Below are positions 2,496-38,122 of a DNA stretch of 64,000 nt, piece after piece. The notes beneath the pieces are model-generated. The model made no database searches, was not told where the DNA came from, and saw only the letters and a list, made by a program, of their open reading frames with translations. Position 1 is the stretch's first letter, and each line of letters begins with the position of its first letter. Position numbers and translations under genes: made by a program. This stretch comes from Mycobacterium sp. E3251 (lineage in GTDB: Bacteria > Actinomycetota > Actinomycetes > Mycobacteriales > Mycobacteriaceae), in NCBI RefSeq assembly GCF_001666835.1, contig NZ_LZJF01000067.1, positions 1-64,000 of the forward strand. The letters are read 5' to 3'.

Positions 2496-3886
<1,391 letters not shown>

Positions 3887-9579: not shown

Positions 9580-9981
9580 GTTTATTCACCATCCGGTCTG
9601 CTAGAACGCCTGGATATTGTCCCTGAACATATCCGCAGCGCGAATTACATCGACAACGGTAAGTCACCCGTAGCGACCTCGCCACGCGACGACGTGCGTT
9701 CACATCTACATCACTTTGCGTACATCTATGCGGACGCCCTCGCCTCGCCGCGTGGGCCGACGCAGGCAACGCCCCAAGCGCCGTTGAACTGGCACTTTCA
9801 GGTTCCCCCGCCGATCCCGCCCGGACACTCACGTCTCCTCAGGGCATCGTAATGGCGAAAGGCCGGCTCGTCCTGTCGAGCGGGTGCGCTCAGCGAACGG
9901 AAGAGCGACGAAACGGGCGACGGCGCGCGCCGCCTCTCCCCGATTGGTCGGCCGTTGAATTCTGGCAGCAAGATGAGCGGT
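9580..9981. promoter_or_regulatory. Divergent promoter region between eccB5 and malQ
   Basis: These 400 bases contain no convincing gene. They must carry the promoters for eccB5 (minus) and malQ (plus). An inverted repeat GGATAT (9612-9617) and ATATCC (9629-9634) with an 11-base spacer lies 33-55 bp upstream of the eccB5 start and may be an operator or 5'-UTR hairpin. Confidence 0.45.
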
Positions 9982-12153
9982 ATGAGTGAGCTCGCGCCGT
10001 CGCTGGTCGAACTTGCCAGGAGGTACGGCATCGCGACCGAGTACGACGACTGGACCGGGCGGCGGGTGCCGGTCTCGGCAACCACGCTGGTGGCGGTGTT
10101 GGCCGCGCTCGGCGTGGCGGCCGGCACGGAGCAGGAGCGCAACATCGCGCTGACCGCGAAGCTCCGGTCGTATTGGGCGCGGCGATTGCCGGCGACCATC
10201 GTCGGCCGCACGGGTGAGCCGACGCGGTTCTGGGTGCACGTGACCCACGGCGATCCCGCGGAGGTCTGGTTGCAGCTCGAGGACGGCGCGGTACGCGGCG
10301 GGATCCAACAGGTGGACAACTTCACCCCGCCGTTCGATTTGGACGGGCGCTGGGTCGGCGAGGCCAGCTTCATGCTGCCGGCCGATCTGCCCCTCGGTTA
10401 TCACCGGGTGCACCTGCGTTCCGGTGGCACTGAGACCAGCAGCGCCGTGATCGTGACGCCGGATTGGCTCGGGCTGCCGGAGCGGCTCGGCGCCCGGCGG
10501 GGCTGGGGCCTGGCCGCCCAGCTCTACAGCGTGCGCTCCAGACAATCGTGGGGGGTCGGCGACCTGACGGACCTGGCCGACCTAGCCGTCTGGTCGGCGT
10601 CGCGGCACGGCGCCGACTACTTGTTGGTCAATCCGCTGCACGCGGCGCAGTTTTGCGGACCGACGGGCCATATGGAGCCCTCGCCCTACCTGCCGACATC
10701 GCGGCGCTTCGTCAACCCCATTTACCTTCACGTCGAGGCGATTCCCGAGTTCGCCGAGCTGCCCAAGCGCAGCCGGGTGCGGCGGCTGCGATTCGACGTG
10801 CAACAGCGAGCCGCTCGGCTCGACGCCATCGATCGCGACAGCGCTTGGGCCGCGAAGTGCGCGGCGCTCCAGCTCTTGCACCGAGTGCCGCGGTCCGCGG
10901 GCCGCGAGTTGTCCTACGAAGCCTTCCGCGCCCGCGAGGGCAGCGCGCTGGACGACTTCGCCACCTGGTGCGCCCTGGCCGAGAAGTACGGCGACGATTG
11001 GCATTCGTGGCCGAAGTCGCTACAGCATCCCCGCGCGCCCGGCGTCGACCGATTCGTCGAGAAGCATGCGGAGGCAGTCGATTTCCATCGCTGGCTGCAG
11101 TGGCAACTCGACGAGCAACTCGCCTCGGCGCAGTCGCAGGCGATCCGGGCCGGGATGGCGCTGGGCGTGATGCACGACCTCGCCGTCGGCGTGCATCCCA
11201 ACGGCGCCGACGCGTGGGCCCTGCAGGACGTGTTGGCGCTGGGTGTCACCGCCGGCGCACCGCCGGACGAGTTCAATCAACTCGGCCAGAACTGGTCCCA
11301 GCCGCCCTGGCGGCCCGATCGGCTCGATGCCGAGGAGTACCGGCCGTTTCGGGCACTGATAAGGGCGGTGCTGCGGCACGCCGGCGGCGTGCGCATCGAC
11401 CACATCATCGGGTTGTTCCGCCTGTGGTGGATCCCGGACGGTACCGCGCCCACCGAGGGCACGTACGTGCGTTACGACCACGAAGCGATGATCGGCATCG
11501 TCGCCCTGGAGGCATACCGCGCCGGCGCGCTGGTCGTGGGCGAGGATTTGGGCACGGTCGAACCGTGGGTGCGCGACTACCTGCTGTTGCGCGGCTTGCT
11601 CGGCACCTCGATCCTGTGGTTCGAATTGGATCGGGACGGAAACGGCGGGCCGCTGCCGGCCGAGCGCTGGCGCGAGTACTGCCTGTCCTCGGTGACCACC
11701 CACGATCTGCCGCCGACCGCCGGCTACCTGGCCGGCGACCACGTGCGGCTGCGCGAAGCTCTCGGGTTGCTGACCCGCCCCGCCGAGGACGAGCTCGCCA
11801 CCGACCGGGCCGAGCTGGCGGCGTGGCTGGCCGAGTTGCGCCGGGTGGGGTTGCTCGACGACGGCGAAGACGACGCGGAGAAAGTCGTCATCGCCCTTTA
11901 TCGCTACCTGGGCCGGACGCCGTCGCGGCTGGTGGGCGTGGCGCTGGCCGATGCGGTGGGTGACCGCCGGACCCAGAATCAGCCCGGCACCACCGACGAA
12001 TACCCCAACTGGCGGATTCCGCTGACCGACCCCGCCGGGCGCCCGGTGCTGCTCGAGGACCTGTTCACCGATGCCCGCGCGGCAACCCTGGCCGAGGCCG
12101 TGCGCGGTGCGATCGCGCCGGCGGCGGTCGAGAGCGCGCCTGTTAGCTTCTGA
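9982..12153 (+). CDS. malQ: 4-alpha-glucanotransferase (amylomaltase, GH77)
   Basis: A 723-residue cytoplasmic glucanotransferase that moves maltosyl or longer alpha-1,4-glucan segments between chains. It has a mycobacterial N-terminal extension (about residues 1-165) before the GH77 barrel. The nucleophile is the Asp of VRIDHIIG (about D473) and the acid/base is the Glu of GEDLG (about E521). The ATG at 9982 (MSELAPSLVELARRYG) is chosen over frames starting up to 27 bases earlier because it matches the known M. tuberculosis start. In M. tuberculosis malQ (Rv1781c) also borders eccB5. Four bases separate its stop from the next gene. Confidence 0.95.
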   Translation: MSELAPSLVELARRYGIATEYDDWTGRRVPVSATTLVAVLAALGVAAGTEQERNIALTAKLRSYWARRLPATIVGRTGEPTRFWVHVTHGDPAEVWLQLEDGAVRGGIQQVDNFTPPFDLDGRWVGEASFMLPADLPLGYHRVHLRSGGTETSSAVIVTPDWLGLPERLGARRGWGLAAQLYSVRSRQSWGVGDLTDLADLAVWSASRHGADYLLVNPLHAAQFCGPTGHMEPSPYLPTSRRFVNPIYLHVEAIPEFAELPKRSRVRRLRFDVQQRAARLDAIDRDSAWAAKCAALQLLHRVPRSAGRELSYEAFRAREGSALDDFATWCALAEKYGDDWHSWPKSLQHPRAPGVDRFVEKHAEAVDFHRWLQWQLDEQLASAQSQAIRAGMALGVMHDLAVGVHPNGADAWALQDVLALGVTAGAPPDEFNQLGQNWSQPPWRPDRLDAEEYRPFRALIRAVLRHAGGVRIDHIIGLFRLWWIPDGTAPTEGTYVRYDHEAMIGIVALEAYRAGALVVGEDLGTVEPWVRDYLLLRGLLGTSILWFELDRDGNGGPLPAERWREYCLSSVTTHDLPPTAGYLAGDHVRLREALGLLTRPAEDELATDRAELAAWLAELRRVGLLDDGEDDAEKVVIALYRYLGRTPSRLVGVALADAVGDRRTQNQPGTTDEYPNWRIPLTDPAGRPVLLEDLFTDARAATLAEAVRGAIAPAAVESAPVSF

Positions 12154-25745: not shown

Positions 25746-26978
25746 CTACAGAATCGCCTTCCGATCCTTCGCCCTGGCGATGTCGTCCCAATCGACGTCG
25801 AGCTCGAGCAGGATCTCTTCCGTGTGCTGGCCGTGTTCGGGCGCACGCGCGGGCGCCGGCGGAGTCTCGTCGAACTGGACGGGCGCGGCGACAATGCGGT
25901 ACTTCTCGCCGTGGTCGTCGACGTTGGTCACCACGTACCCGTTCGGTTCGACCTGCGGATCGTTGAGCGTTTCCCGCGGCGTCGCCAGGGCGCCCCACAC
26001 GCCCGGCTCCTCCTCGAGCGCCTTCTGCCAGTGGGCGAGATCGTGGCGGGCGAACGCGTTGGTCAGGATCTCCGTGGCCTCCGCGGCGTTGGCGATCAGG
26101 TTGCTCGACGGCACGAATCGCTGATCGGTGGCCAGCTCGGCCAGGCCGACTCGCTCACAGAACCCTGCCCAGAACTTGTCCGGCTGCAAGAACACCAACT
26201 GGATCCACCTGCCGTCGCGGGTCTTGTACCTGTTCACCAGCGGGTTGATGGCCAGCCCCGGCGGTGCGCCCGGGATCCCGTCGATGTCGAAGAAATCGGC
26301 CGCCGAGATGGACGGCGCTATCGCCCACATCGCCTGCGCCAGCAGCGAGGAGTCGACGATCGTCGGTTCGCCGGTGCGTTCGCGGTGGAACAGCGCGGCG
26401 CAAACGCCACCGGCGAGCGTCGCCCCACCTTGAAGATCACCGAACCCCGGACCCTGCACCGCGGGCGTGTCCGTGCCGAACGGCGTGAGCGTGTACGCGA
26501 CCCCGCCGCGCGCCAGGTAGGTGGCCGCGTCGAACCCGCCACGGTCGCGGTCCGGCCCCCGCACCCCCAGACCGGTGCCTCGCGCGATGATGATCTTCGG
26601 GTTGAACGAGCGGATGTCGTCCACGGTCAGCCGGGCCCGCTCGAGCGCACCCGGCAGCCAATTGGTAAGGAACACATCGGCACTGGCCAACAGGCGGCCG
26701 AACAGCTCGCGACCCGTGTCGGATTTGATGTCGATGGCGATGCTGCGCTTACCGCGGTTGCCCAGCTCGAGGATGAAGTCGGCGTCCGGGCGCGCCGCCT
26801 GCCGGGTGAAGCCGCCGACGACCAGCGCGCGCCCGGGGTCACCCGAGGCGACACCCTCGACCTTGATCACGTCGGCGCCCCAGTCCGACAGGGCCGCACC
26901 GGCCGATGGCACGTAGGTCCACGATGCCAATTCGACCACCCGCACCCCGTGCAGGACACCACCGCGCACGCCAGACAT
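25746..26978 (-). CDS. CaiB/BaiF family III CoA transferase
   Basis: A 410-residue protein starting MSGVRGGVLHGVRVVELASW, with the family opening GVRVVELASWTYVPSAGAALSDWGADVIKVE and the middle block YLARGGVAYTLTPFGT. Family III transferases move CoA between acids through an aspartyl-CoA intermediate. It is divergent from the SDR-E1-lipoyl operon and probably activates the same substrate. The ATG at 26978, with GAGGGAG upstream, is preferred to an in-frame TTG two codons earlier. Confidence 0.9.
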   Translation of the reverse strand: MSGVRGGVLHGVRVVELASWTYVPSAGAALSDWGADVIKVEGVASGDPGRALVVGGFTRQAARPDADFILELGNRGKRSIAIDIKSDTGRELFGRLLASADVFLTNWLPGALERARLTVDDIRSFNPKIIIARGTGLGVRGPDRDRGGFDAATYLARGGVAYTLTPFGTDTPAVQGPGFGDLQGGATLAGGVCAALFHRERTGEPTIVDSSLLAQAMWAIAPSISAADFFDIDGIPGAPPGLAINPLVNRYKTRDGRWIQLVFLQPDKFWAGFCERVGLAELATDQRFVPSSNLIANAAEATEILTNAFARHDLAHWQKALEEEPGVWGALATPRETLNDPQVEPNGYVVTNVDDHGEKYRIVAAPVQFDETPPAPARAPEHGQHTEEILLELDVDWDDIARAKDRKAIL

Positions 26979-27018
26979 CGCCAACTCCCTCGGTCGACCC
27001 GTTCATTCCTTGCTATTT

Positions 27019-27040
27019 TAGATATTCTAGCTAGTCTAGG
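27019..27040. promoter_or_regulatory. AT-rich candidate promoter/operator of the divergent clusters
   Basis: The sequence TAGATATTCTA (palindromic TAGA/TCTA arms) is followed by GCTAGTCTAGG, giving three TCTA/TAGA half sites within about 20 bases. It is the only AT-rich patch in the 273-bp gap between the CoA transferase and the SDR operon, about 40 bp from the CoA transferase start. Assignment is tentative. Confidence 0.4.
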
Positions 27041-27251: not shown

Positions 27252-28115
27252 ATGGGCAGGGTAACCGGCAAGGTGGCCGTGATCAGTGGCGCCGCGCGAG
27301 GCCAAGGCCGTTCGCACGCGCGGATGCTGGCTGCCGAAGGCGCGGACATCATTGCGGTGGACCTGTGCGCCGACATCGAGACCAACGAGTATCCCCTGGC
27401 CCGGCGGGAAGACCTCGACGAGACGGCCCGGCTGGTCGAGAAGGAGGGCCAGCGCGCGTTCACCGCGGTCGCGGACGTTCGCGACCGGGTGGCCCTGTCC
27501 ACCGCGATCGATGAGGGCGTCGCCGAGTTGGGGCATCTCGACGTCGTCGTCGCCAACGCGGGCATCTGCCCGCTCACCGCGGGCCTGCCGCCGCAGGCCT
27601 TCGCCGACGCCGTGGACGTGGACCTGGTCGGAGTGCTGAACCTGGTGCACGCGAGCCTCAAACATCTGCAGGCCGGCGCGTCGATCATCGTGATCGGTTC
27701 CAATGCGGCGTTCATGTCGTCGATGAACACCACCGGCATCGACGGGGGCCCCGGCGGCGCGGGGTATGCCTTCGCGAAATTGGCTGCCGCGCACTACGTC
27801 AACGACTTCGCCCTGGCGCTCGCCCGATTCTCCATCCGGATGAACGCGGTGCACCCCACCAATGTCAACACCGACATGCTGCACAGCCCTCCCATGTATC
27901 GGGCCTTCCGGCCGGACCTGAAGGATCCGACGCGCGAGGACGCCGAACCGGTTTTCCCGCTCGTGCAGGCGATGCCGATCCCCTACGTCGAGCCCGAGGA
28001 CATCAGCGAGGCAGTGTTGTTCCTGGCCTCCGACGCGGCGCGCTACATCACCGGGCAGCAGCTCCGTGTCGACGGCGGCGGCTTCCTCAAGGTCAAGCCG
28101 TGGTCGGGTGCGTGA
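27252..28115 (+). CDS. Mycofactocin-coupled SDR oxidoreductase
   Basis: A 287-residue short-chain dehydrogenase. GAARGQGRSHARMLAAEGADIIAVD is the glycine-rich nucleotide loop in the version seen in mycofactocin-associated (carveol-dehydrogenase-like) SDRs, which hold NAD tightly and pass electrons to the peptide cofactor mycofactocin. The catalytic Tyr-Lys pair is in GYAFAKLAAAHY. The ATG at 27252 is well inside a longer open frame whose upstream part is non-coding. It begins the catabolic operon and its stop overlaps a possible GTG of the next gene. Likely oxidises a secondary alcohol. Confidence 0.9.
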   Translation: MGRVTGKVAVISGAARGQGRSHARMLAAEGADIIAVDLCADIETNEYPLARREDLDETARLVEKEGQRAFTAVADVRDRVALSTAIDEGVAELGHLDVVVANAGICPLTAGLPPQAFADAVDVDLVGVLNLVHASLKHLQAGASIIVIGSNAAFMSSMNTTGIDGGPGGAGYAFAKLAAAHYVNDFALALARFSIRMNAVHPTNVNTDMLHSPPMYRAFRPDLKDPTREDAEPVFPLVQAMPIPYVEPEDISEAVLFLASDAARYITGQQLRVDGGGFLKVKPWSGA

Positions 28116-28120
28116 CATCG

Positions 28121-29101
28121 ATGACCGACTCCCCCGACGTCGAGCGCCGGCTGTACGAGCTGATGGTGCTGATGAAGGCGGCCGATGACCGGCTGTTCAA
28201 AGGCATCGGCACGGGCGAGTTCATGTGCGTCTACTGGCCCTCGCGCGGCCAGGAGGCCATTGCCGCCGCGATGGGCGTGGCGCTGCGCCCCGACGATCAG
28301 CTGGTGACCACCTACCGCGGCCTGCACGACCTCATCGGCAAGGGCGTCCCGCTCGAGGAGATCTACGGCGAGATGATGGGCCGCACCGTCGGCGCCAGCC
28401 GGGGCAAGGGCGGCACCATGCACATCGCCAATCCCGTTATGGGCGTGATGCTTTCGACCGGGATCGTCGGGGCCGGGCCACCGGTGGCGGTGGGACTGGC
28501 GATGGCGGCCAAACGCAAGGGCTCCGATCGCGTCACGGTGGTCAGCTTCGGTGACGGCGCCACCAACACCGGGTCGTTCCACGAGGCGGCGAACATGGCG
28601 GCGCTGTGGGACCTGCCGATGGTCTTCGTCTGCCAGAACAACCAGTACGCGGAGATGACGCCCACGGCCGACACCATGAAGCTCGAACGCGTCGCCGACC
28701 GGGCGGCCGGCTATGGCATGCCCGGGGTGCGGGTCGACGGAAACGACCCGCTGGCGGTCAAATCCGCACTCGAGGACGCGCTGCGGCGGGCCCGCGCCGG
28801 TGACGGCCCCAGCTTCATCGAATGCGTCACGTTCCGCTTTAGAGGCCATTACTTCGGCGACCGGATGCCCTACATTCCCAAGGATCAACTTGCCGCCGCG
28901 ATGGAAGCCGACCCGGTCCCCCGGTTCCGCAGCCACCTCGCCGCCACCGGCATCTGCGCTTCCGACGAACTCGACCGCATCGACGGCGAGGCGCTGGCGG
29001 CGGTGGAAGCGGCGCTGCAAACCGTGATGGGCGCCGATTCCCCGTCCATCGACGAGCTGGACCGGGATGTGTACGCGACCCCGATCGGGTTCCCGGTATG
29101 A
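28121..29101 (+). CDS. TPP-dependent dehydrogenase E1 component, alpha subunit
   Basis: A 326-residue protein of the PDH/acetoin dehydrogenase E1-alpha family. The TPP-binding motif is visible as SFGDGATNTGSFHEAANMA...CQNNQYA (GDG to NN), with the earlier GASRGKGGTMHIA stretch. With E1-beta it would bind thiamine diphosphate and decarboxylate or cleave a 2-oxo compound, transferring the acyl unit to a lipoyl group. A GTG at 28112 (GTGA overlap with the SDR stop) is an alternative start. Confidence 0.93.
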   Translation: MTDSPDVERRLYELMVLMKAADDRLFKGIGTGEFMCVYWPSRGQEAIAAAMGVALRPDDQLVTTYRGLHDLIGKGVPLEEIYGEMMGRTVGASRGKGGTMHIANPVMGVMLSTGIVGAGPPVAVGLAMAAKRKGSDRVTVVSFGDGATNTGSFHEAANMAALWDLPMVFVCQNNQYAEMTPTADTMKLERVADRAAGYGMPGVRVDGNDPLAVKSALEDALRRARAGDGPSFIECVTFRFRGHYFGDRMPYIPKDQLAAAMEADPVPRFRSHLAATGICASDELDRIDGEALAAVEAALQTVMGADSPSIDELDRDVYATPIGFPV

Positions 29102-30114
29102 ACACGCAGGAGCGGGAGATGACGATGCGCGAGGCGCTCAACCTCGCGCTGGATCAAGCGCTTGCCGCCGACGACCGGGTGTTCCTGCTCGGTGAGGACA
29201 TCGCCGATCCGGGTGCGTCCGGACCGACCGCGGGCCTGTCGACGAAGTACGGTCACGACCGTGTCCTGGACACACCGATCTCCGAGGCGGCGATCGTCGG
29301 CGCGGCCATCGGCGCCGCCATCGACGGGCTGCTGCCGGTGGCCGAGATCATGATCATGGACTTCATCGGCATCGCGGCCGACCAGCTGATCAACAACGCG
29401 GCCAAGCTGAGGTTCATGACCGCCGGACGCACAACGGCACCGATCACCATCCGCACCCAGGTCTACGCCGGGCTGGCCACCGGTGCCACGCATTCGCAAA
29501 GCCTCGAGGCATGGTTCATGCACATCCCGGGCATGAAGGTGATCGTGCCGTCCACACCCCGCGACGGGAAGGGCCTCCTGACATCGGCGATTTTCGACGA
29601 GGATCCCTGCCTGTTCGTCGAAACCATTCGGCTGCAAGGCAAGAAAGGTCCCGTCCCCGTCGATCCCGCGTTCTCGATCCCGCTGGGCCGAGCCGACATC
29701 AAGCGGCCGGGCACCGACGTGAGCCTGATCGCCTACGGACGGTGCGTGCACGACGCCCTCACCGCCGCGGACACGCTGGACGAACAGGGCGTGAGCGCCG
29801 AGGTCGTCGATCTGCGCACCCTGGTGCCGCTCGACGTCGAGACCATCGTCGACTCCGCCCGCCGTACCCGCCGTGCCGTCATCATCCATGACGCGGTCCA
29901 ATTCGCCGGCCCCGGAGCCGAACTCGCCGCGATCCTGCACTCGGAGCTGTTCTCCGAGCTGGCCGCGCCCGTCGAACGAGTGGCCGCCCGATTCGTCCCC
30001 AACCCGGCCGCGGCGGCGCTCGAGGCGCAGGTATACCCCTCGCCGGCACGAATCGTCGCGGCGGCGCTGAAGACCTTCGGGAGGACGCTGGCGGAGGCGA
30101 AAGCGCGTGGCTGA
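29098..30114 (+). CDS. TPP-dependent dehydrogenase E1 component, beta subunit
   Basis: A 338-residue E1-beta. It has the pyrimidine-domain pattern MTMREALNLALDQALAADDRVFLLGEDIA and the transketolase C-terminal domain with VVDLRTLVPLDVETIVDSARRTRRAVIIHDAVQFAG. Its ATG overlaps the alpha stop by 4 bases (ATGA), so the subunits are made in step. The family-typical Glu for cofactor activation lies in the GEDIA or SEAAIVGAAIGAA blocks. Confidence 0.93.
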   Translation: MNTQEREMTMREALNLALDQALAADDRVFLLGEDIADPGASGPTAGLSTKYGHDRVLDTPISEAAIVGAAIGAAIDGLLPVAEIMIMDFIGIAADQLINNAAKLRFMTAGRTTAPITIRTQVYAGLATGATHSQSLEAWFMHIPGMKVIVPSTPRDGKGLLTSAIFDEDPCLFVETIRLQGKKGPVPVDPAFSIPLGRADIKRPGTDVSLIAYGRCVHDALTAADTLDEQGVSAEVVDLRTLVPLDVETIVDSARRTRRAVIIHDAVQFAGPGAELAAILHSELFSELAAPVERVAARFVPNPAAAALEAQVYPSPARIVAAALKTFGRTLAEAKARG

Positions 30115-30343
30115 CTTCATCATTCGCATTCCGCGCGTCTCGGTGGCCGTGTCGGAGGCCGAGCTCACCGGGCTCCTCGTCGACGCCGGCCAGCACGTGG
30201 ACGCGGGCACACCCCTCTACGTGATCGCCACCGAGAAGGTGGAACAGGAGATCGAAGCGGGGGCCTCGGGCACCGTGCAATGGACGGGCCGGGTCGGGAC
30301 CACCTACGACATCGGCGCCGAAATCGGCGTCATCACTTCTTGA
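30107..30343 (+). CDS. Stand-alone lipoyl-domain protein
   Basis: A 78-residue protein that is a single biotinyl/lipoyl-attachment domain. The lipoylation site is the Lys in ATEKVEQEIEA, at the tip of the beta-hairpin. Unlike normal E2 proteins there is no peripheral-subunit-binding domain and no acyltransferase domain. The GTG start overlaps the E1-beta stop by 8 bases, so it is made with E1. It should carry the acyl or reducing equivalents produced by E1; the partner acyltransferase and E3 are not encoded nearby. Confidence 0.88.
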   Translation: MADFIIRIPRVSVAVSEAELTGLLVDAGQHVDAGTPLYVIATEKVEQEIEAGASGTVQWTGRVGTTYDIGAEIGVITS

Positions 30344-30363
30344 ACCAACGAAAGGTGAAACGC

Positions 30364-31236
30364 ATGGATCTCAACGAGACTCGCGAGAGAATCATCTACC
30401 AAAAAGAGGGGCCCATCGCCCGCGTCACGCTCAACTGGCCGGAGAAGGCGAATGCCCAGGACCAGAAGCTGGCCGAAGAGGTCGACGCCGCCCTGCTGGA
30501 CGCCGACCGCGACTACGACATCAAGGTGCTCGTCCTCAAGGCCAACGGCAAGGGCTTCTGCTCGGGACACGCCATCGGTAACAACGCCGTCGACTACCCG
30601 TCGTTCGTGGAGAACGCCATGGTGACGGGCCACCCGTGGAAGGCGCAATCCGATCTGTTCGTCAAGCCAACCCTGAACCTGTGGGAGTTCTCCAAGCCAA
30701 CGATCGCTCAGGTGCACGGCTACTGCGTCGGTGGCGGCACGCACATGGGCCTGACCACCGACATCGTCATCGCCGCCGAGGATGCCTACTTCTCGTATCC
30801 GCCGCTGCAGGGTTTCGGCATGCCTTCCGGCGAATGTTCCATTGAGCCTTGGGTTTTCATGAACTGGCGGCGGGCCGCCTACTACCTGTTCACCGCGGAG
30901 GTGATCGACGCCAAAAAGGCGCTGGAGGTTGGCCTCGTCAACGAAGTGGTCCCGCGCGACCAGCTCGACGATCGTGTCGAGGCGATCGCCCGGCATATCG
31001 CCCAGGCGCCGTTGACGACGCTGATGCTCACCAAGGCCAATCTGAAGCGGGCCTGGGAGCTGATGGGCATGCGGGTGCACTGGCAGAGCTCGAACGACCT
31101 CGTCGCCCTGGCTTCCATTAGCAAGGACGTCCAGGAGCTGATCCAGACGGTGTTCAGGGACAAGGTGCTGCCGTCCGAGCACGCACGGCGCCAGGCCGCG
31201 GCGGCCGCAACGACCGATGGCGCGTCACCTTCATAG
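30364..31236 (+). CDS. Enoyl-CoA hydratase/isomerase family protein
   Basis: A 290-residue crotonase-fold protein. The CoA oxyanion-hole segments are KANGKGFCSGHAIGN and VHGYCVGGGTHMGL. Of the two usual catalytic Glu residues, the first position is not Glu (SYPPLQGFG) and a Glu is seen in PSGECS, so hydratase activity is uncertain; related folds also do C-C cleavage. It shares LKRAWELMGMRVH with the hydratase at 35885-36730 and is its paralog. It starts 20 bases after the lipoyl gene with AAAGG upstream. Confidence 0.9.
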   Translation: MDLNETRERIIYQKEGPIARVTLNWPEKANAQDQKLAEEVDAALLDADRDYDIKVLVLKANGKGFCSGHAIGNNAVDYPSFVENAMVTGHPWKAQSDLFVKPTLNLWEFSKPTIAQVHGYCVGGGTHMGLTTDIVIAAEDAYFSYPPLQGFGMPSGECSIEPWVFMNWRRAAYYLFTAEVIDAKKALEVGLVNEVVPRDQLDDRVEAIARHIAQAPLTTLMLTKANLKRAWELMGMRVHWQSSNDLVALASISKDVQELIQTVFRDKVLPSEHARRQAAAAATTDGASPS

Positions 31237-31245
31237 GCGCCGCCA

Positions 31246-32781
31246 GTGAACCTCGCCGATCACGCCAAGAGGGCCGGACAGGCGCCGGCCCTCATCGTCG
31301 CGGACGGTGGCACGATCTCGCACTCCGAGCTGTACGCCCGCAGCCGGCGCGTCGCGGCGGTGTTGCACGAGGCTGGACTGCGCCCCGGCGACGGCGTGGC
31401 CCTGATCTCGCCGAACCGGCCTGAGTTCCTCGAAATCACCTGGGCCTGTCAGCTTTCCGGCCTGTATTACACCGCGGTCAACACCCACTTCACCGCGGAC
31501 GAGGTCGCCTACGTCATCGGGGACTCCGATGCGCGGGCGGTCTTCGTCGACGCGACCATGCCCGAGCTTGCCGCCCACGTCCGCGCGGCCAACCCTGCCG
31601 TCACCATTCGCCTCGCGGTGGGGGGAGCCCTGCCCGGCTGGCGGGATTACGAGGAGGCGCTCGCGACGGCCGGTGCCGCGCCGCCCGCGTCGGACGGGTC
31701 GGAAATGCTGTACTCGTCGGGCACCACGGGTCGGCCCAAGGCGGTCCGCCGGCCCCTTCCGACCGACGGCAACGGCTCCTGGGCTCAGGCGGTGCTGGAG
31801 CTAGCGCTGACTCACAAGTACGGAATGAGCATGTCCAGCGTGTACCTCTCCCCCGCACCGCTGTACCACGCCGCCGGAGTGAACTACACCATGGCGGTCA
31901 ACCGCGTCGGCGCCGCGGCGATTCTCATGCGCAAGTTCGACGCCGAGACCGTCTTGCGATTGATCGAGACCCACCGCGTGACGCACGCCCAGTTCGTGCC
32001 CACCATGTTCGTGCGGATGCTCAAGCTGCCCAGGGCGGTTCGGGAAAAGTATGACGTGTCGAGCCTGCGATGTGTGATCCACGCGGCCGCGCCCTGCCCG
32101 GTCGACGTCAAGCACCACATGATGAAGTGGTTCGGGCCGATCATCCACGAATACTACGGCGGCACCGAGGGATTCGCGGGGACGACCATCGGTCCCGAGG
32201 AATGGCTGGCCCACCCCGGTTCGGTGGGCAGACCGATGACACCGGTGCACGTGATCGGAGAAGACGGCGCCGAGTTGCCCGCCAGGCACGCCGGTGAGCT
32301 CTTCTTCGAAGGCGGACCCGACTTCGAATACTTCAAGGACCCCGCCAAGACCGCCTCGGTGTACAACGACCGCGGCTGGCGCACCCTGGGCGACATGGGG
32401 TACGTCGACGACGACGGCTACCTCTATCTCACCGACCGGTCCACGTTCATGATCGTTTCCGGCGGGGTGAACATCTACCCCCAGGAGGTCGAGAACCTGC
32501 TGATCATGCATCCCAAGCTCGTTGACGCGGCCGTCTTCGGCGTCCCGAACGACGAGTTCGGCGAGGAGGTCAAGGCCGTCGTACAGCCGGTCGACGGCGT
32601 CCGTCCAGGGCCCGACCTCGAGGCGGAGCTCATCGAGTACTGCCGAGCGCACCTGGCCGGCTACAAGTGCCCGCGCACCGTCGAATTCGTTCCGGAATTG
32701 CCACGGGACCCGAACGGAAAGCTGTACAAGAGACGCATTCGCGAGCGTTACTGGCAGGGGCGGACAACGCGAATCGTGTAA
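31246..32781 (+). CDS. Acyl-CoA synthetase (AMP-binding, FadD-like)
   Basis: A 511-residue ATP-dependent acid:CoA ligase of the ANL family. The phosphate loop is LYSSGTTGRPKAVRRP (about residue 155), then YYGGTEG, GWRTLGDMGYVDDDGYLYLTDR, and the C-terminal catalytic Lys in NGKLYKRRIRERY. It would activate a carboxylic acid intermediate of the operon's pathway. GTG start 9 bases after the hydratase gene. Confidence 0.92.
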   Translation: MNLADHAKRAGQAPALIVADGGTISHSELYARSRRVAAVLHEAGLRPGDGVALISPNRPEFLEITWACQLSGLYYTAVNTHFTADEVAYVIGDSDARAVFVDATMPELAAHVRAANPAVTIRLAVGGALPGWRDYEEALATAGAAPPASDGSEMLYSSGTTGRPKAVRRPLPTDGNGSWAQAVLELALTHKYGMSMSSVYLSPAPLYHAAGVNYTMAVNRVGAAAILMRKFDAETVLRLIETHRVTHAQFVPTMFVRMLKLPRAVREKYDVSSLRCVIHAAAPCPVDVKHHMMKWFGPIIHEYYGGTEGFAGTTIGPEEWLAHPGSVGRPMTPVHVIGEDGAELPARHAGELFFEGGPDFEYFKDPAKTASVYNDRGWRTLGDMGYVDDDGYLYLTDRSTFMIVSGGVNIYPQEVENLLIMHPKLVDAAVFGVPNDEFGEEVKAVVQPVDGVRPGPDLEAELIEYCRAHLAGYKCPRTVEFVPELPRDPNGKLYKRRIRERYWQGRTTRIV

Positions 32782-32799
32782 CCGAAGAGGGATGGCGAG

Positions 32800-34194
32800 A
32801 TGGCTTCCAAGACAGACTCAGCGACAAGCCCGGTGGGCACGGACAGGACCTGGACACCGCTGCCGGTGCCGTGGGCGGTCCAGACCGTCGATCGCATTCC
32901 CAAGCAGCGCTACTACGACGCCGAGTTCTTCGCGCTGGAAGCGGCGGCCTTCTGGCCGCGCGTCTGGCAGATGGCATGCCGGCTCGAGGAGATTCCCAAA
33001 CCCGGCGACTTCGTCGAATACGAGATCCTCGACCAGTCGATCATCGTGGTGCGTGTCGACGCGGACACGGTGCGGGCCTACCACAACGCGTGCCGCCATC
33101 GCGGGGTGAAACTCGTGGAAGGCGGGGGTTCCCGGCGAACTTTCGTTTGCCCCTTCCACGGCTGGTGCTGGGGCCTCGACGGGCGCAGCACATTCGTGTT
33201 GCGGCCCGAGGCGTTCGCCGACGAAAACATGAATCCGCAAGACCTGCAGCTGGTTTCGGTGCGATGTGAGACCTGGGGCGGGTGCGCGTGGATCAACCTC
33301 GACGACGGGGCCCCCGCGCTGCGTGACTGCCTGGAGCCCTTCGCGTCGACCTACGACGCCTGGCAGGTGGAATCGCTGCGGGTCGAGTGGTGGCAGTCCT
33401 GCCGGCTGCCGGTGAACTGGAAGCTGGCGGCGGCGGCGTTCATGGAGGGCTACCACGTCCCCCAGACCCATCCGCAGCTGCTGCCCTCCGCGCAGAACGG
33501 CGGCCCCGTCAAATCGGTGCACCCCGTCGTCGCGAGCAGCCTGTACTTCATGCGTACCCTCGGCACCGGCATGGGCGGCATGACGCACGACAACGACATC
33601 CGAATCGCCGAGGGACTGCAGAACATTGAGCTCCCCGCCGATCCCGCCGCGGCGATGAATGCCTGGCGCGGCGCCCTCAACGACGCCGTCGTCAGCTGGC
33701 ACCGGGCCCGGGGCAGCACCATGCCCGACCTCAACGAGCTGGTCCGCCGCGGGATCACCGACGCGATCGGGTTCTGCTTCCCGCACTACTTCATCCTGCC
33801 CACCTACAGCAGCGCGTCGTCCTACCGCATCCGCCCGCTGGGCCCCGAGGACACCCTGTTCGAGATCTGGTCCCTCACCCGGTTCCCCGACGATGTTTCC
33901 GCGGGCAGGCCCCAGCCCCCGGAGCCGATGGCGCCCGACGACCCGCGCTGGCCACCGATCCCAGCGCAAGACTTCTCCAATCTGCCGAGGCAGCAGAAAG
34001 GGTTGCACTCCAAGGGCTTCGAGTACATGCGCCTGTCGGACCAGATCGAGGGCCTGATCTCCAACTTCGAACGCGTCGTCGACGGCTTTCTCGCCGGCCT
34101 GCCGCACGAGGCGTTGGTTCCCGCGATCCAGAAGACCAACACCACCATCGACGTACCGGTCGCCGACCTGGCCTTGCGCGCGGAGGCACGATGA
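32800..34194 (+). CDS. Rieske non-heme iron oxygenase, alpha subunit
   Basis: A 464-residue ring-hydroxylating oxygenase subunit. The Rieske 2Fe-2S site is C-R-H-R ... C-P-F-H-G-W (CxH-x17-CxxH), near residues 98-120. The catalytic domain contains EGYHVPQTHPQLL, which supplies the two His of the mononuclear iron site. No beta subunit, ferredoxin or reductase gene is adjacent, so electrons must come from elsewhere. GAGGGATGGCGAG precedes the ATG. Confidence 0.93.
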   Translation: MASKTDSATSPVGTDRTWTPLPVPWAVQTVDRIPKQRYYDAEFFALEAAAFWPRVWQMACRLEEIPKPGDFVEYEILDQSIIVVRVDADTVRAYHNACRHRGVKLVEGGGSRRTFVCPFHGWCWGLDGRSTFVLRPEAFADENMNPQDLQLVSVRCETWGGCAWINLDDGAPALRDCLEPFASTYDAWQVESLRVEWWQSCRLPVNWKLAAAAFMEGYHVPQTHPQLLPSAQNGGPVKSVHPVVASSLYFMRTLGTGMGGMTHDNDIRIAEGLQNIELPADPAAAMNAWRGALNDAVVSWHRARGSTMPDLNELVRRGITDAIGFCFPHYFILPTYSSASSYRIRPLGPEDTLFEIWSLTRFPDDVSAGRPQPPEPMAPDDPRWPPIPAQDFSNLPRQQKGLHSKGFEYMRLSDQIEGLISNFERVVDGFLAGLPHEALVPAIQKTNTTIDVPVADLALRAEAR

Positions 34195-35888
34195 CCACCC
34201 GGTGGGACCGCTCCGTGGATCTGCTCATTGCGGGCAGCGGCGGGGGCGGCATGGTCGCGGCGCTGGCGGCGCTCGACTCCGGCATCGAGCCGCTGGTGAT
34301 CGAAAAGCAGGCCCTGGTCGGCGGTTCCACCGGCCTCTCGGGCGGCATGGTGTGGCTGCCGAACAACCCGCTCATGCGCGCCGCGGGCATCCCGGACTCG
34401 CACGAGGACGGTCTGGCCTATTTCGACGACGTCGTCGGTGACATCGGTCCGGCCTCCTCGCCGGCGCGCCGCGAGATGTTCCTCAGCGCGGGCTACGAAA
34501 TGATCGACTTCCTCACCCGCAAGGGTGTTCGGTTCGTGCGGTGCCCCGGCTGGAGCGATTATTACCCGAACCACAAGGGGGGCAACGAAGCCGGTCGTGC
34601 TATCGAGTGCGTCCCGTACGATGCCGCCGCTCTGGGGACCTGGCGGGACAGGGTCCAGCCTTCGATGGCCAAGGCGTATGGCGGGTTCGTGCTCAAGACC
34701 AACGAGCTGCGTTCGGTGCAGTACTTCAATCGGTCGCCGCGAGCCTTCGCGGTGGCGATGCGAGTGTTCGCGCGCACCAGGGCCGCCCGGCTGCGCCGTC
34801 GGGAGATCCTCACCAACGGAGCGTCGCTCATCGGTCAGATGCTCAAGGTGCTGATCGATCTGCGCGGCGAGCCGCCGATCTGGACGGGCGCGGCGATGGA
34901 TGACCTGATCGTCGAGGATGGCCGGGTCGTAGGCGCGCGCGTCTCACGGCACGGCGAGGCGCTGAACATCGAGGCGCGGAAGGGCGTCCTGCTGGCCGCG
35001 GGCGGGTTCAGCCGCAACGCGGACATGCGCCGCCGCTACAGCGGGGACCAGCCGAACGAGGGGCTCTGGTCGATCGCGAACGCCGGCGACACCGGCGAGG
35101 TGTTGCAGACCGCGATCCGGCTGGGCGCCAAGACCGACCTGATGGACGAGGCCTGGTGGCTGCCGTCGGTTTTCATCGCCGACGGGGGCGACGCCGCGAA
35201 GGCGCTGGGCAGCGGGCGGCAGCGCCCCGGCGCCATCTACGTCGACGGAACCGGCAGGCGGTTCTGCAACGAGTCCAACTCGTACGTCGAAGTCGGCAAG
35301 GCGATGTATGCGAACAAGGCGGTGCCGTGCTGGATGGTCTTCGACGAGGGCTACATCGGCCGGTACGTTTCGGGGGCGAACCCGTTCAAGAAGCGTCGCC
35401 TCCCCGAAGAACTCATCACACGGGGCGCGGTGATGCGCGGTGAGACCATCGGCGAGCTGGCGCACCAGATGGGGGTCCCGGCCGACGCGCTGGAGCAGAC
35501 GATCAGGCGCTTCAACGGTTTTGCGGCCAAGGGCCTCGATCCCGACTTCGGGCGCGGTCAGTCGGCGTACAACGACTGCCTGGGTGATCCCGGGCATCGC
35601 CCCAACGCCGCGCTCGGTCCGCTCGAGCGGTCACCGTTCTATGCCACCAAAGTCGTTCCGGCCGATGTCGGCACGTGCGGCGGCGTGATCACGAACGAGC
35701 ACGCCCAGGTGCTCGACGAGGACGACCGCGTGATCGGCGGACTGTACGCGACCGGCAACATCACCGCGACGGTGATGGGCCGCAACTATCTGGGCGCCGG
35801 CGGAAGCATCGCGTACACAATGGTGTTCGGCTACGTCGCGGCTCGGCACGCCGGGCGCCGGGGTGGCGCCGGCGAGCCAGGCGGCTAG
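34191..35888 (+). CDS. KstD-like FAD-dependent dehydrogenase
   Basis: A 565-residue flavoprotein of the fumarate reductase/3-ketosteroid dehydrogenase family. The FAD Rossmann motif DLLIAGSGGGGMVAALAALDSG is at residues 10-31, followed by VIEKQALVGGSTGLSGG. The C-terminus LYATGNITATVMGRNYLGAGGSIAYTMVFGYVAARH keeps a Tyr and a Gly four residues later as in the YPGPG motif of KstD enzymes, supporting ring 1,2-desaturation-type chemistry. The ATG overlaps the Rieske stop (ATGA). Its stop overlaps that of the convergent hydratase gene. Confidence 0.88.
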   Translation: MTTRWDRSVDLLIAGSGGGGMVAALAALDSGIEPLVIEKQALVGGSTGLSGGMVWLPNNPLMRAAGIPDSHEDGLAYFDDVVGDIGPASSPARREMFLSAGYEMIDFLTRKGVRFVRCPGWSDYYPNHKGGNEAGRAIECVPYDAAALGTWRDRVQPSMAKAYGGFVLKTNELRSVQYFNRSPRAFAVAMRVFARTRAARLRRREILTNGASLIGQMLKVLIDLRGEPPIWTGAAMDDLIVEDGRVVGARVSRHGEALNIEARKGVLLAAGGFSRNADMRRRYSGDQPNEGLWSIANAGDTGEVLQTAIRLGAKTDLMDEAWWLPSVFIADGGDAAKALGSGRQRPGAIYVDGTGRRFCNESNSYVEVGKAMYANKAVPCWMVFDEGYIGRYVSGANPFKKRRLPEELITRGAVMRGETIGELAHQMGVPADALEQTIRRFNGFAAKGLDPDFGRGQSAYNDCLGDPGHRPNAALGPLERSPFYATKVVPADVGTCGGVITNEHAQVLDEDDRVIGGLYATGNITATVMGRNYLGAGGSIAYTMVFGYVAARHAGRRGGAGEPGG

Positions 35889-36730
35889 GCCCCGGCATCC
35901 TTCTCGTCGCGGCCGATGAATTCGCGTGGCTTCATGCCCGATTGCTTCAGCTCGGCCCGCCGCGCCTGGACGTCGGAGGCGGCGCCGACCATGTTCGTCA
36001 GGATGTGGCTGACCTGCAGGTGCACCCGCATGCCCATCAGTTCCCACGCGCGCTTCACGTTGTTCTTCACCGCCATCAGTGTGGTCAATGGGATTTGAGC
36101 GATCTTGCGCGCCATCTCCTCGACGACTTCGTCGAGGTCTTCGCGCGGCACCACCTTGTTGAGCAGGCCCCAGTCGAGGGCTTCCTGCGCGGAGAGCGTC
36201 GGGGCGAGCAGCAGCCAGTCCATGGTCCGATGCCAGTTCATCAGCAACCACGGCTCGATCATGGTGTGCCCGCCGGGCTCGCCAAGGCTTTGAGCAAGCG
36301 GCATTTGAAAATACGCATCCTCGGACGCGACGCAAAAGTCGGTCAGCAGACCGAGATAGATCCCGCCCCCCATGCAATAGCCGTGAATCGCGGAAATCGT
36401 CGGCTTCGGAAACTCCCACAGGTACAGCGTCGGCCACAGGAACAAGTCGGCCGTGCCCTTGTACAGGTCCTCGAACGTCTCACCGAAGTCCGGATACGGG
36501 TTTTCGTCAGGGCCCCAGCGGGCCACATGCCCGCCGCAGAACCCTTTTCCGTTGGCCTTTAGGATGACGACCTTGATCTCTTTATCCCGGTCGGCTTCGT
36601 GCAGGCATTCGTCGACTTCGGTGACCAGGACCGCGTCCTTGGTGTTGGCCTTGTCCACCCGGTTCAGGATGATCCGCGCGATCGGCGGTTCGCGCTCGTA
36701 GATGACCGCTTCGAGAACGCGCCGCTCCAT
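35885..36730 (-). CDS. Enoyl-CoA hydratase/isomerase family protein
   Basis: A 281-residue crotonase starting MERRVLEAVIYEREPPIAR. Oxyanion segments are KANGKGFCGGHVARWG and IHGYCMGGGIYLGL. A Glu is present in SLGEPGGHTMIEPW. It is a paralog of the hydratase at 30364, sharing VKRAWELMGMRVH. It is convergent with the KstD-like gene, the two stop codons overlapping. It likely serves the same pathway from its own promoter. Confidence 0.9.
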   Translation of the reverse strand: MERRVLEAVIYEREPPIARIILNRVDKANTKDAVLVTEVDECLHEADRDKEIKVVILKANGKGFCGGHVARWGPDENPYPDFGETFEDLYKGTADLFLWPTLYLWEFPKPTISAIHGYCMGGGIYLGLLTDFCVASEDAYFQMPLAQSLGEPGGHTMIEPWLLMNWHRTMDWLLLAPTLSAQEALDWGLLNKVVPREDLDEVVEEMARKIAQIPLTTLMAVKNNVKRAWELMGMRVHLQVSHILTNMVGAASDVQARRAELKQSGMKPREFIGRDEKDAGA

Positions 36731-36820: not shown

Positions 36821-37381
36821 TCAGCGGCCTTCGCGTCCCGCGCGCGCAAGCAGCCAGGCCTGACCCTCGCCTTCGCCGGCGGCCAGCTGCTCGAGTTCGG
36901 CGAACGCCGCGGGTAGCTCGCCGGCGGCCGCGCGATACGGGCCTGGGGCGGCTCCCACTTCGCTCAGCACGGTGATCGCGAGCAGCCCGCCGGGCGCCAG
37001 GCGTTCGATGATCAACCGGTCGAGGCGGCGGTCCCGGAATCGATGGCACAGGACGAGGTCCACGGGCGGCCCGGCCGGCAGGCCGTCATCGAGGTCAGCG
37101 ACCTCGAAACGGCACCGATCGCTCACGCCGGCGCGCTGAGCCAGCTCCCGCGCCTGACCGACCGCCACCGGCGAGACGTCCACGCCCACCACCTCGAGCC
37201 CGCGCAGCGCGAGCCACACCGCGCTCGGTCCGGGTCCGCATGCGACATCGAGAGCCCTTCCCGCAGTGGGCAGTACGTCCAGGTGGGGCGCCAAGAAGTC
37301 GGGTGGTCCCACCGCGTCCATCGATGGCGGTGCTTTGGTCGCGTACCGCTCGTCCCAGCGCTGCCGGTCCGCTTCGGCCAT
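36821..37381 (-). CDS. Class I SAM-dependent methyltransferase
   Basis: A 186-residue small methyltransferase of the TehB/thiopurine-methyltransferase-like kind. Motif I is RALDVACGPGPSAVWLALRG, then VVGVDVSPVAV (acidic end of strand 2) and VADLDDGLPAGPPVDLVLCHRF. The ATG (MAEADRQRWDERYATK) is chosen over an open frame continuing 37 codons upstream, because WDERY is the usual start of this family. Substrate unknown. Confidence 0.88.
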   Translation of the reverse strand: MAEADRQRWDERYATKAPPSMDAVGPPDFLAPHLDVLPTAGRALDVACGPGPSAVWLALRGLEVVGVDVSPVAVGQARELAQRAGVSDRCRFEVADLDDGLPAGPPVDLVLCHRFRDRRLDRLIIERLAPGGLLAITVLSEVGAAPGPYRAAAGELPAAFAELEQLAAGEGEGQAWLLARAGREGR

Positions 37382-37546
37382 AGCCGCCACTCTAGGGGCG
37401 CCCAGCTGTTCTGGACAGCTGTCTGTAAATCGCCGTCGGCGGGTACCGGACCGCCGTTCGGCGGTGACGCGAAACAACAGCGCGTAGCGCAAATCCGCCG
37501 CCGGGCAAGATTCGGAAGACGGTTGTTCGCGCTCTCGGCGCCTTCC

Positions 37547-37552
37547 TACACT
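37547..37552 (+). promoter_or_regulatory. -10 element of leaderless tetR promoter
   Basis: TACACT (TANNNT) is followed by six bases and then the GTG at 37559, the leaderless arrangement. It fixes the start of the TetR gene inside a much longer open frame. Confidence 0.6.
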
Positions 37553-37558
37553 GGACCG

Positions 37559-38122
37559 GTGTCCAAAGATGCGGCTCGTCGGTCCGACCGCCGGCCCGGA
37601 CAGACGATCCGCAAGGTCCTCGACGCCGGGCTCGAGGAGCTGCGCGCGTCGTCGTACGCCAATCTGACGATGCGTTCGGTGGCGAGTCGTGCCGGAGTGT
37701 CACCGGCCAGCGCCTACACCTACTTTCCGTCGAAAAGCGCACTGGTCGCGGCGGTGTACCTGCGCTTTCTCCGCGAGCTGCCGCTGCATACCGATGTCAA
37801 CGACACCACCAAGACCCGGGTCAGCTCAACCCTGCGAGACATGGCCGTCGTGGTAGCCGACGAGCCCGAACTGACCGCGGCGTGCGGCGCGGCCCTGATG
37901 GCAGATGACCCGGCGGTGAAGCCGATTCGTGAGCAGATCGGCCAAGAGGTCGGCACCCGGATCGGTGCCGCGCTGGGACCGGGCTGGCCGCGCGCCGTGA
38001 AATCGACGCTGCAGATGACTTTCTCCGGCGCGCTGATGACCGCCCGGTTCGTCAGCTTCGATGAGATCGCGGGACAACTCGACGAGGCCGTCAACCTGAT
38101 TTTGGGTGCATCCGTGGCGTAA
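37559..38122 (+). CDS. TetR-family regulator
   Basis: A 187-residue repressor. The helix-turn-helix is seen as LTMRSVASRAGVSPASAYTYFPSKSALVAAVY (about residues 36-68). The C-terminal ligand domain has no assigned effector. The start is a leaderless GTG. It is divergent from the methyltransferase (178 bp) and convergent with the amidohydrolase, 18 bp away. Confidence 0.92.
   Translation: MSKDAARRSDRRPGQTIRKVLDAGLEELRASSYANLTMRSVASRAGVSPASAYTYFPSKSALVAAVYLRFLRELPLHTDVNDTTKTRVSSTLRDMAVVVADEPELTAACGAALMADDPAVKPIREQIGQEVGTRIGAALGPGWPRAVKSTLQMTFSGALMTARFVSFDEIAGQLDEAVNLILGASVA

Follow-up and report, generated by a model that had tools for sequence, protein, structure and literature searches.

A catabolic operon of Mycobacterium sp. 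E3251, located in a 64-kb stretch of contig NZ_LZJF01000067.1 (the window, to which all coordinates refer unless another locus is named), probably encodes a split enzyme of the 2-oxoacid dehydrogenase type. Two subunits of a predicted thiamine pyrophosphate (TPP)-dependent dehydrogenase, E1-alpha and E1-beta, are followed directly by a stand-alone lipoyl domain of 78 amino acids (LIP), which would serve as a diffusible lipoyl carrier, with both the E2 catalytic (acyltransferase) domain, CAT (ACYLTRANSFERASE), and the lipoamide dehydrogenase (E3) supplied in trans. In textbook 2-oxoacid dehydrogenases, the lipoyl domain and the acyltransferase are parts of one chain and the lipoyl arm swings between active sites. 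The genes form a plus-strand run in the order short-chain dehydrogenase/reductase (SDR), E1-alpha, E1-beta, LIP, crotonase-fold protein (ECH), acyl-coenzyme A (CoA) ligase (FadD), Rieske oxygenase, and KstD-like flavoprotein. E1-alpha lies at 28100 to 29101 (PF00676, E = 7e-76; alternative ATG start at 28121), E1-beta at 29098 to 30114 (PF02779/PF02780), and LIP at 30107 to 30343 (GTG start; PF00364, E = 1.1e-9), all on the plus strand. An earlier note, made by a model from the letters alone, had described much of this, and most of its description stands. The coordinates confirm its 4-base overlap (ATGA) of E1-alpha with E1-beta and its 8-base overlap of E1-beta with LIP; the lipoyl-only protein matches PF00364 alone; Pfam and NCBIfam confirm the crotonase, acyl-CoA ligase, Rieske oxygenase, and KstD-like flavoprotein behind it; and scans with CAT, TIGR01350, and Pfam found no E2, E3, or subunit-binding domain in the operon. 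The note's single-strand run is correct from the SDR gene, which it had left unnamed, to the KstD-like gene, but the last crotonase gene (35885 to 36730) is on the minus strand.

The window's E1 contains the sequence GDG...NN, which we take to be the thiamine motif, and a Glu and a His of E1-beta, presumably the catalytic pair, are invariant in all eight aligned sequences. No GcvH-type domain was recognized in LIP by Pfam, and the chains of the stand-alone LIPs stop no more than 12 residues past the lipoyl domain. The lysine in the sequence ATEKVEQEIEA is residue 44. A structural model (AlphaFold2, 20-sequence alignment; mean predicted local distance difference test score, 94.6) places residues 42 to 45, Lys44 included, between two strands, and predicts a lipoyl-type fold with Lys44 at the turn of a beta-hairpin. 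When this model was searched with Foldseek, lipoyl domains of 2-oxoacid dehydrogenases were among the best solved matches, as were biotin carriers, which have the same fold. By sequence, the best NCBIfam match is the AcoC lipoyl domain, and the first two solved matches are E2 lipoyl domains, followed by a biotin carrier in third place. LIP as a biotin rather than a lipoyl carrier was rejected, since it lacks an AMKM-type motif, presumably the mark of biotin carriers, and since its NCBIfam match and its first two solved matches are to E2 lipoyl domains.

Several observations bear on lipoylation. The LIP lysine is invariant in all 86 aligned rows, two of which are AcoC lipoyl domains, and both LipB and LipA are encoded in the window's genome. 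In addition, a second lipA (above cut-off) of genome G187 stands ∼1.3 kb behind a LIP relative (44% identical), the other copy being ∼70 kb away. Together, the lysine, LipA/LipB, and the G187 lipA support, but do not prove, that LIP is lipoylated. At the G187 locus (L046), LIP is at about 9429 to 9659 and the lipA-like gene at 10689 to 11864. At another locus (L113, Mycolicibacterium sp. P9-22), LIP likewise has a second gene for lipoyl synthase in its vicinity, and an E1 pair is ∼30 kb away.

Of 198 genomes of the genus, 62 have LIP orthologs (E ≤ 3e-31), the next group of matches beginning at E = 1.7e-18; a 35-residue LIP fragment in genome G191 was left out of the 62. At a looser threshold (E ≤ 1e-10), 13 of 298 genomes sampled across the order and 4 of 396 sampled across the phylum have a LIP match; these counts include the window's genome, and all but one of the genomes belong to the same genus. 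We examined 16 neighborhoods, from 12 of the 62 LIP-positive genomes hand-picked for spread and from 4 named loci, and E1-alpha and E1-beta stand beside LIP in 15 of them. Because the E1-alpha, E1-beta, LIP order is kept in these 15 and is found in other phyla, a chance arrangement or an annotation artifact was rejected.

Where, then, is the acyltransferase? There is no CAT in the window or on its contig, no match to lipoamide dehydrogenase (TIGR01350) on the contig, and no subunit-binding domain found by Pfam in the 10 window proteins scanned. An overlooked E2 in the vicinity of the operon was therefore rejected for the window and its contig, and it was also rejected as a third CAT gene in five LIP-positive genomes. 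These five (G110 and G045, each a single contig, and G132, G164, and G108) have two CATs, in frames of 616 to 643 and 951 to 1,286 amino acids, lengths that fit DlaT and KGD. They are among 10 of the 62 LIP-positive genomes in which only two CATs were found (in one fragmented assembly, one CAT). The window's genome has four CAT places, namely, DlaT, BkdC, and KGD (named by length and neighbors) and a CAT with a subunit-binding domain at the end of contig C151, and it has two lipoamide dehydrogenases above the TIGR01350 cut-off. The C151 protein was rejected as a stand-alone CAT because of its subunit-binding domain; the gene is cut by the contig end, and its lipoyl part may simply lie outside the assembled sequence. 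At this locus (L059, 9252 to 10403), the E2 piece is followed by a phosphopantetheine carrier protein, perhaps as another unusual acyl-transfer unit. The number of CATs per genome is similar with and without LIP (means of 3.6 for the 62 LIP-positive and 3.5 for the 136 LIP-negative genomes; P = 0.46), and each of the 198 genomes has at least one. Since, moreover, the mycobacteria checked show no CAT-only gene, either a housekeeping CAT acts in trans or the acyl group leaves LIP in some other way.

The E1/LIP unit also occurs outside mycobacteria. When named genomes were scanned with an alignment of E1-beta, at least 564 loci were confirmed, and the best 80 of these hold 81 E1-beta places (one locus, L117, holds two); several of the 80 end at contig ends. 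LIP without CAT accompanies E1-beta at 40 places, LIP with a separate CAT at 16, and a fused E2 at 6, whereas LIP is elsewhere in the locus at 8 and missing at 11. Downstream sequence of 4 kb or more is available at 35 of the LIP-only places, and the whole locus is free of CAT at 34 of these. Units with a stand-alone LIP recur in other Actinomycetota, in Pseudomonadota, and in Thermus. For instance, a Streptomyces plasmid carries Rieske, a ferredoxin-type protein, a flavin adenine dinucleotide (FAD)-binding flavoprotein, E1-alpha, E1-beta, and LIP, and an Azospirillum plasmid carries Rieske, E1-alpha, E1-beta, LIP, a ligase, and an FAD-binding flavoprotein.

In Paraburkholderia operons whose gene set is close to that of the window, CAT is a gene of its own directly behind LIP. 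The Paraburkholderia sprentiae operon encodes Rieske, an FAD_binding_2 flavoprotein, E1-alpha, E1-beta, LIP, CAT, a CoA ligase, two crotonases, and an SDR, and beyond the window's run it has, besides CAT, an electron transfer flavoprotein and two acyl-CoA dehydrogenases. Three Burkholderiales plasmid loci, that of P. sprentiae included, have E1-alpha, E1-beta, LIP, and CAT, and in Sphingobium TomTYG73 the E1 pair, CAT, and LIP are kilobases apart within ∼20 kb of one plasmid. In the TomTYG73 plasmid loci (L083 and L090), the CAT-only gene is annotated as hypothetical and genes of CoA-thioester catabolism lie alongside. The sequence DHRV[IV][ND]G, which we take to be the CAT active-site motif, is present in all 19 stand-alone CAT genes found behind LIP (16 scan places and the three plasmid loci), and the 11 CAT-only proteins run against Pfam all match PF00198 alone, with neither a lipoyl nor a subunit-binding domain. 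Two of them were compared to solved structures, and both matched pyruvate dehydrogenase acetyltransferase (E2p) cores first, at 255 and 234 bits, compared to 109 and 115 bits for the best succinyltransferase and 108 and 100 bits for the best branched-chain E2. These nearest cores are presumably of the E. coli/Azotobacter type. Among the three options that the earlier note had offered for the fate of the acyl-lipoyl unit, borrowing of E2 and E3 in trans is the best supported, by the Paraburkholderia CAT gene, the TomTYG73 scatter, and the CATs and lipoamide dehydrogenases of the window's genome. An E2 gene in the operon of homologs, which the note had named as evidence against its own reading, occurs in distant relatives (the 16 of 81 places) but in none of the mycobacterial neighborhoods of the cluster examined.

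An E1-beta tree was made from 100 of 118 rows, 18 judged redundant having been omitted by hand. The split state, LIP plus a separate CAT, is confined inside one clade of 46 rows, Pseudomonadota by title save for one Actinomadura row, and the window's group of 15 rows is entirely CAT-less. A group of 13 holds two acetoin-type rows, six of the seven fused-E2 rows, and three distant stand-alone units; the seventh fused-E2 row, the branched-chain type of the window's genome, is the outgroup. At least eight changes of state are needed on this tree, and gain and loss of CAT fit alike.

In the mechanism that we propose, the substrate of E1 would be a cyclic intermediate, probably terpenoid- or steroid-like, in which the enzyme would cleave a C-C bond adjoining a carbonyl. 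Judging from its motifs and family, E1 would reductively acylate the lipoyl arm of the diffusible LIP. A general CAT encoded elsewhere, most likely that of DlaT, would then pass the acyl group to CoA, as the split operons and the E2p-type CAT-only proteins suggest, and Lpd, for which the genome has two candidates, would reoxidize the LIP arm. If DlaT serves, the acyl group on LIP is likely to be a small, acetyl-like piece clipped off the skeleton, because the tested CAT-only proteins are of the acetyl-transferring type. It is the company of genes that suggests a ring-type substrate: among the 40 LIP-only places, Rieske is found at 27, acyl-CoA dehydrogenase at 23, FadD at 22, cytochrome P450 at 19, and the KstD family (relatives of the flavoprotein of the window, L084, or L088) at 17, the families being recognized by BLAST to reference proteins, and the window's flavoprotein passes the cut-off of a ketosteroid dehydrogenase model. 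The operon gives no evidence for acetoin, pyruvate, or branched-chain acids. For the cutting of a steroid side chain by a thiamine enzyme, DesAB is a proposed precedent (PMC3735941). Such a reaction would be a new route of oxidative C-C cleavage. Service in trans has a mirror precedent in OdhA/KGD, which combines its own E1 and CAT with lipoyl groups from E2p domains, so that the acyl transfer runs across separately encoded parts; sharing of lipoyl groups between complexes is thus established in these bacteria (PMC10415282). The analogy is inverted, in that KGD has E1 and CAT without a lipoyl domain, whereas here E1 and a lipoyl domain are found without CAT.

A number of points weigh against this mechanism. 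First, LIP is absent from the locus at 11 of the 81 E1-beta places and only distant at 8, although some of these are cut by contig ends. Second, at locus L039 (genome G066), E1-alpha and E1-beta are gone while LIP and the other genes of the cluster are kept, and no E1-beta in G066 is more than 44% identical. (At L039, a natural deletion, a small open reading frame of 108 amino acids lies between SDR and LIP.) Third, the residue at position −3 from the LIP lysine is Glu in 9 of the 12 aligned LIPs but Ala in the remaining 3, among them that of the window, and recognition of LIP by the lipoylation enzymes is therefore not certain. Fourth, the fused branched-chain-type E2 of the window's genome and the C151 CAT with its subunit-binding domain could serve instead. 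Fifth, other E2p entries, including 6zzi to 6zzm, which we take to be actinobacterial, score 106 to 113 bits with the two CAT-only proteins, no better than the succinyltransferases, which makes the step from these proteins to the mycobacterial DlaT a weak one. Nor do we know of any case in which DlaT or KGD passes an acyl group to LIP or takes one from it. Finally, outside the main clades, in Thermus (L086) and Rubrobacter (L092), the E1-alpha, E1-beta, LIP unit adjoins tripartite ATP-independent periplasmic or sugar ATP-binding cassette transporters, and a ring-type substrate therefore cannot be general. The transporter-linked units may represent a different use of the E1/LIP pair.

An alternative is that E2 is replaced rather than borrowed. 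Another enzyme of the operon would open the acyl-lipoyl bond, either by hydrolysis followed by re-activation by FadD or by transfer through a crotonase or CoA transferase. We consider this unlikely, although the distribution of the genes partly agrees with it: the CAT-less state is the commonest of all (40 of 81 places) and the sole state in the window's 15 tree rows, and CAT is missing from 34 of the 35 LIP-only loci with enough downstream sequence. A CoA transferase is kept beside the mycobacterial operon in 15 of the 16 neighborhoods, and product names point to AcoC-type E2s with an alpha/beta hydrolase domain in the place of CAT (we take the C-terminal part of such E2s to have the alpha/beta hydrolase fold). 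FadD is found at 22 and ECH at 16 of the 40 LIP-only places. However, FadD is equally common where CAT is present (12 of the 16 split places) and so does not look like a CAT substitute, and besides E1 and LIP no examined family is present at all 40 places. The occurrence of CAT in each of the 198 genus genomes searched also argues against a replacement. We are just as doubtful of the broader form of this idea, a widespread family of E1 and free lipoyl carriers that works without any E2, in which a ring or side-chain acyl group is handed to CoA by a non-CAT enzyme of the operon. If true, it would mean oxidative, thiamine-dependent opening or shortening of terpenoid- or steroid-like skeletons straight to CoA thioesters.

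A non-oxidative reaction is less likely still. Here, E1-alpha/E1-beta would be a transketolase-type lyase acting on an alpha-ketol, and LIP would be only a regulator, a remnant, or an electron acceptor. The model is the steroid-17,20-desmolase DesAB, a two-subunit TPP enzyme for which cleavage of the alpha-ketol side chain of a steroid, beside a carbonyl, has been proposed (PMC3735941). DesAB is annotated as a split transketolase, comes from an anaerobe, and is proposed to act by transketolation, and the part of that account available to us mentions no lipoyl partner (PMC3735941); the window has one. In agreement with a lyase, the E1-beta proteins of the window's clade branch apart from the acetoin-type and branched-chain rows, and G066 retains LIP without E1. 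On the other hand, LIP stands behind E1-beta in several phyla and overlaps it in the window, its lysine never varies, CAT follows LIP at 16 of the 81 places, and the LIP relative in G187 has a lipA nearby, all of which points to reductive acylation. The earlier note's suggestion that the KstD-like flavoprotein reoxidizes dihydrolipoyl-LIP in place of E3 is very improbable, for although the operon encodes this flavoprotein and no E3, the protein belongs with the 3-oxosteroid 1-dehydrogenases (3-ketosteroid dehydrogenase family) and has no Pfam match to pyridine-nucleotide disulfide oxidoreductases, its family was not found at 23 of the 40 LIP-only places, and the genome has its two lipoamide dehydrogenases.

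Returning to the split dehydrogenase, its parts resemble those of known systems. The pyruvate and branched-chain 2-oxoacid dehydrogenases share the E1-alpha/E1-beta domains, the thiamine motif, and a lipoyl domain with a predicted hairpin lysine; the two tested CAT-only proteins of the relatives are of their E2p type, and E3 is available, though elsewhere in the window's genome. They differ in that here the lipoyl domain is a separate protein in a catabolic operon that lacks a subunit-binding domain, CAT, and E3, and in that, in the tree, the window's E1-beta is separate from the branched-chain and fused-E2 rows. As for acetoin dehydrogenase, the window's E1-beta is ∼46% identical to an AcoB-type record (H34) and LIP has the AcoC lipoyl domain as its best NCBIfam match, but AcoC is one chain that extends 289 to 296 residues past its lipoyl domain (two records), a tail that LIP lacks. 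The system is thus not a classical complex, because there is no E2, and not an acetoin dehydrogenase, because there is no AcoC. E1-type glycolyl-loading enzymes of natural product pathways also combine E1-like and lipoyl domains and deliver a two-carbon unit without a normal E2, but these are biosynthetic and their acyl acceptor is a carrier protein. Among known single-domain lipoyl carriers are GcvH and LbpA, neither of which is known to work with an E1. LbpA, of Hdr-like sulfur oxidation, and GcvH resemble LIP in that they serve separately encoded enzymes (PMC6067878). These two are related to each other, in contrast to LIP, which has PF00364 alone and stands behind E1-alpha/E1-beta. No description of the E1/LIP unit was found in the literature searched, which lay mostly outside subscription papers; the parts are known, and the combination of E1 with a free LIP appears new as far as that literature shows.

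The remaining genes of the operon are those of a catabolic pathway. The run opens with a mycofactocin-type SDR oxidoreductase (27252 to 28115, plus strand; TIGR03971, 332.7 bits against a cut-off of 300). The CoA transferase is a divergent, upstream gene of family III (CaiB-like; 25746 to 26984, minus strand; PF02515, E = 4.9e-84), and between it and SDR there is an A+T-rich element, TATTTTAGATATTCTAGCTAG (27014 to 27034), a candidate operator or promoter in which TATTTTA recurs in all 11 aligned intergenic regions. Behind LIP come, on the plus strand, the crotonase-fold ECH1 (30364 to 31236; PF00378, E = 3.7e-33), which starts at the ATG at 30364 and not at 30280, and a FadD4-like acyl-CoA ligase (31246 to 32781; PF00501/PF13193) whose best NCBIfam match, FadD4, at 613 bits, is below the cut-off of 850. 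The Rieske oxygenase alpha subunit (32800 to 34194, plus strand; PF00355/PF00848) has phthalate 3,4-dioxygenase and carnitine monooxygenase as its closest solved relatives. It matches KshA at just E = 3e-4, and for this reason a KshA-like 9-alpha-hydroxylase was rejected and we do not claim a steroid substrate from this gene. The KstD-like flavoprotein (34191 to 35888, plus strand) is above the cut-off of NF009478 and gives 316 bits with the 3-oxosteroid 1-dehydrogenase 7p18. The minus-strand crotonase-fold gene, ECH2 (PF00378, E = 2.7e-30), is convergent with it and is present in all 16 neighborhoods. A TetR-type regulator follows (37043 to 38122, plus strand; PF00440), which matches KstR weakly (43 bits; cut-off, 280); its helix-turn-helix is at residues 193 to 238, and its true start is therefore probably downstream.

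The window's genome has a second related unit on contig C159, in which E1-alpha and E1-beta are in one frame and LIP is 51% identical. Its LIP is at 8848 to 9060 on the minus strand (L029, G000:C159:1-20000), and units L044, L045, and L048 are like it. In L048, from another genome, Pfam recognized crotonases, a nitronate-monooxygenase-type protein, a thiolase, and a ChsH2-type OB protein, a set that to us is reminiscent of sterol ring degradation. On contig C64 of the window's genome, an E1-alpha-like gene (L060, 8940 to 9854; PF00676) behind which no E1-beta was recognized shares a cluster with genes for a ligase, acyl-CoA dehydrogenases, and two KstD-like flavoproteins. Within the window, the catabolic region has on one side ESX secretion genes beside malQ (an FtsK/SpoIIIE-type, EccC-like gene at 3896 to 9579 and an EccB-type gene at 9955 to 12153), and a cytochrome P450 gene is at 2550 to 3863. 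A 771-residue CoA-transferase III protein, encoded at 55564 to 57879, is matched in two stretches and is apparently a tandem fusion.

These findings suggest that a 2-oxoacid dehydrogenase complex has been taken apart, in one lineage to the point of having no acyltransferase gene of its own, and yet LIP has been kept in about a third of the genus genomes (62 of 198). This makes two questions testable: whether such an enzyme can do entirely without channeling by a tethered arm, and whether the mycobacterial DlaT serves a further E1 besides its own and KGD. The Rieske oxygenase, KstD-like flavoprotein, ligase, crotonases, and mycofactocin-type SDR point to degradation of cyclic lipids or plant terpenoids through an undescribed step, which mycobacteria may share with Paraburkholderia, sphingomonads, and others.

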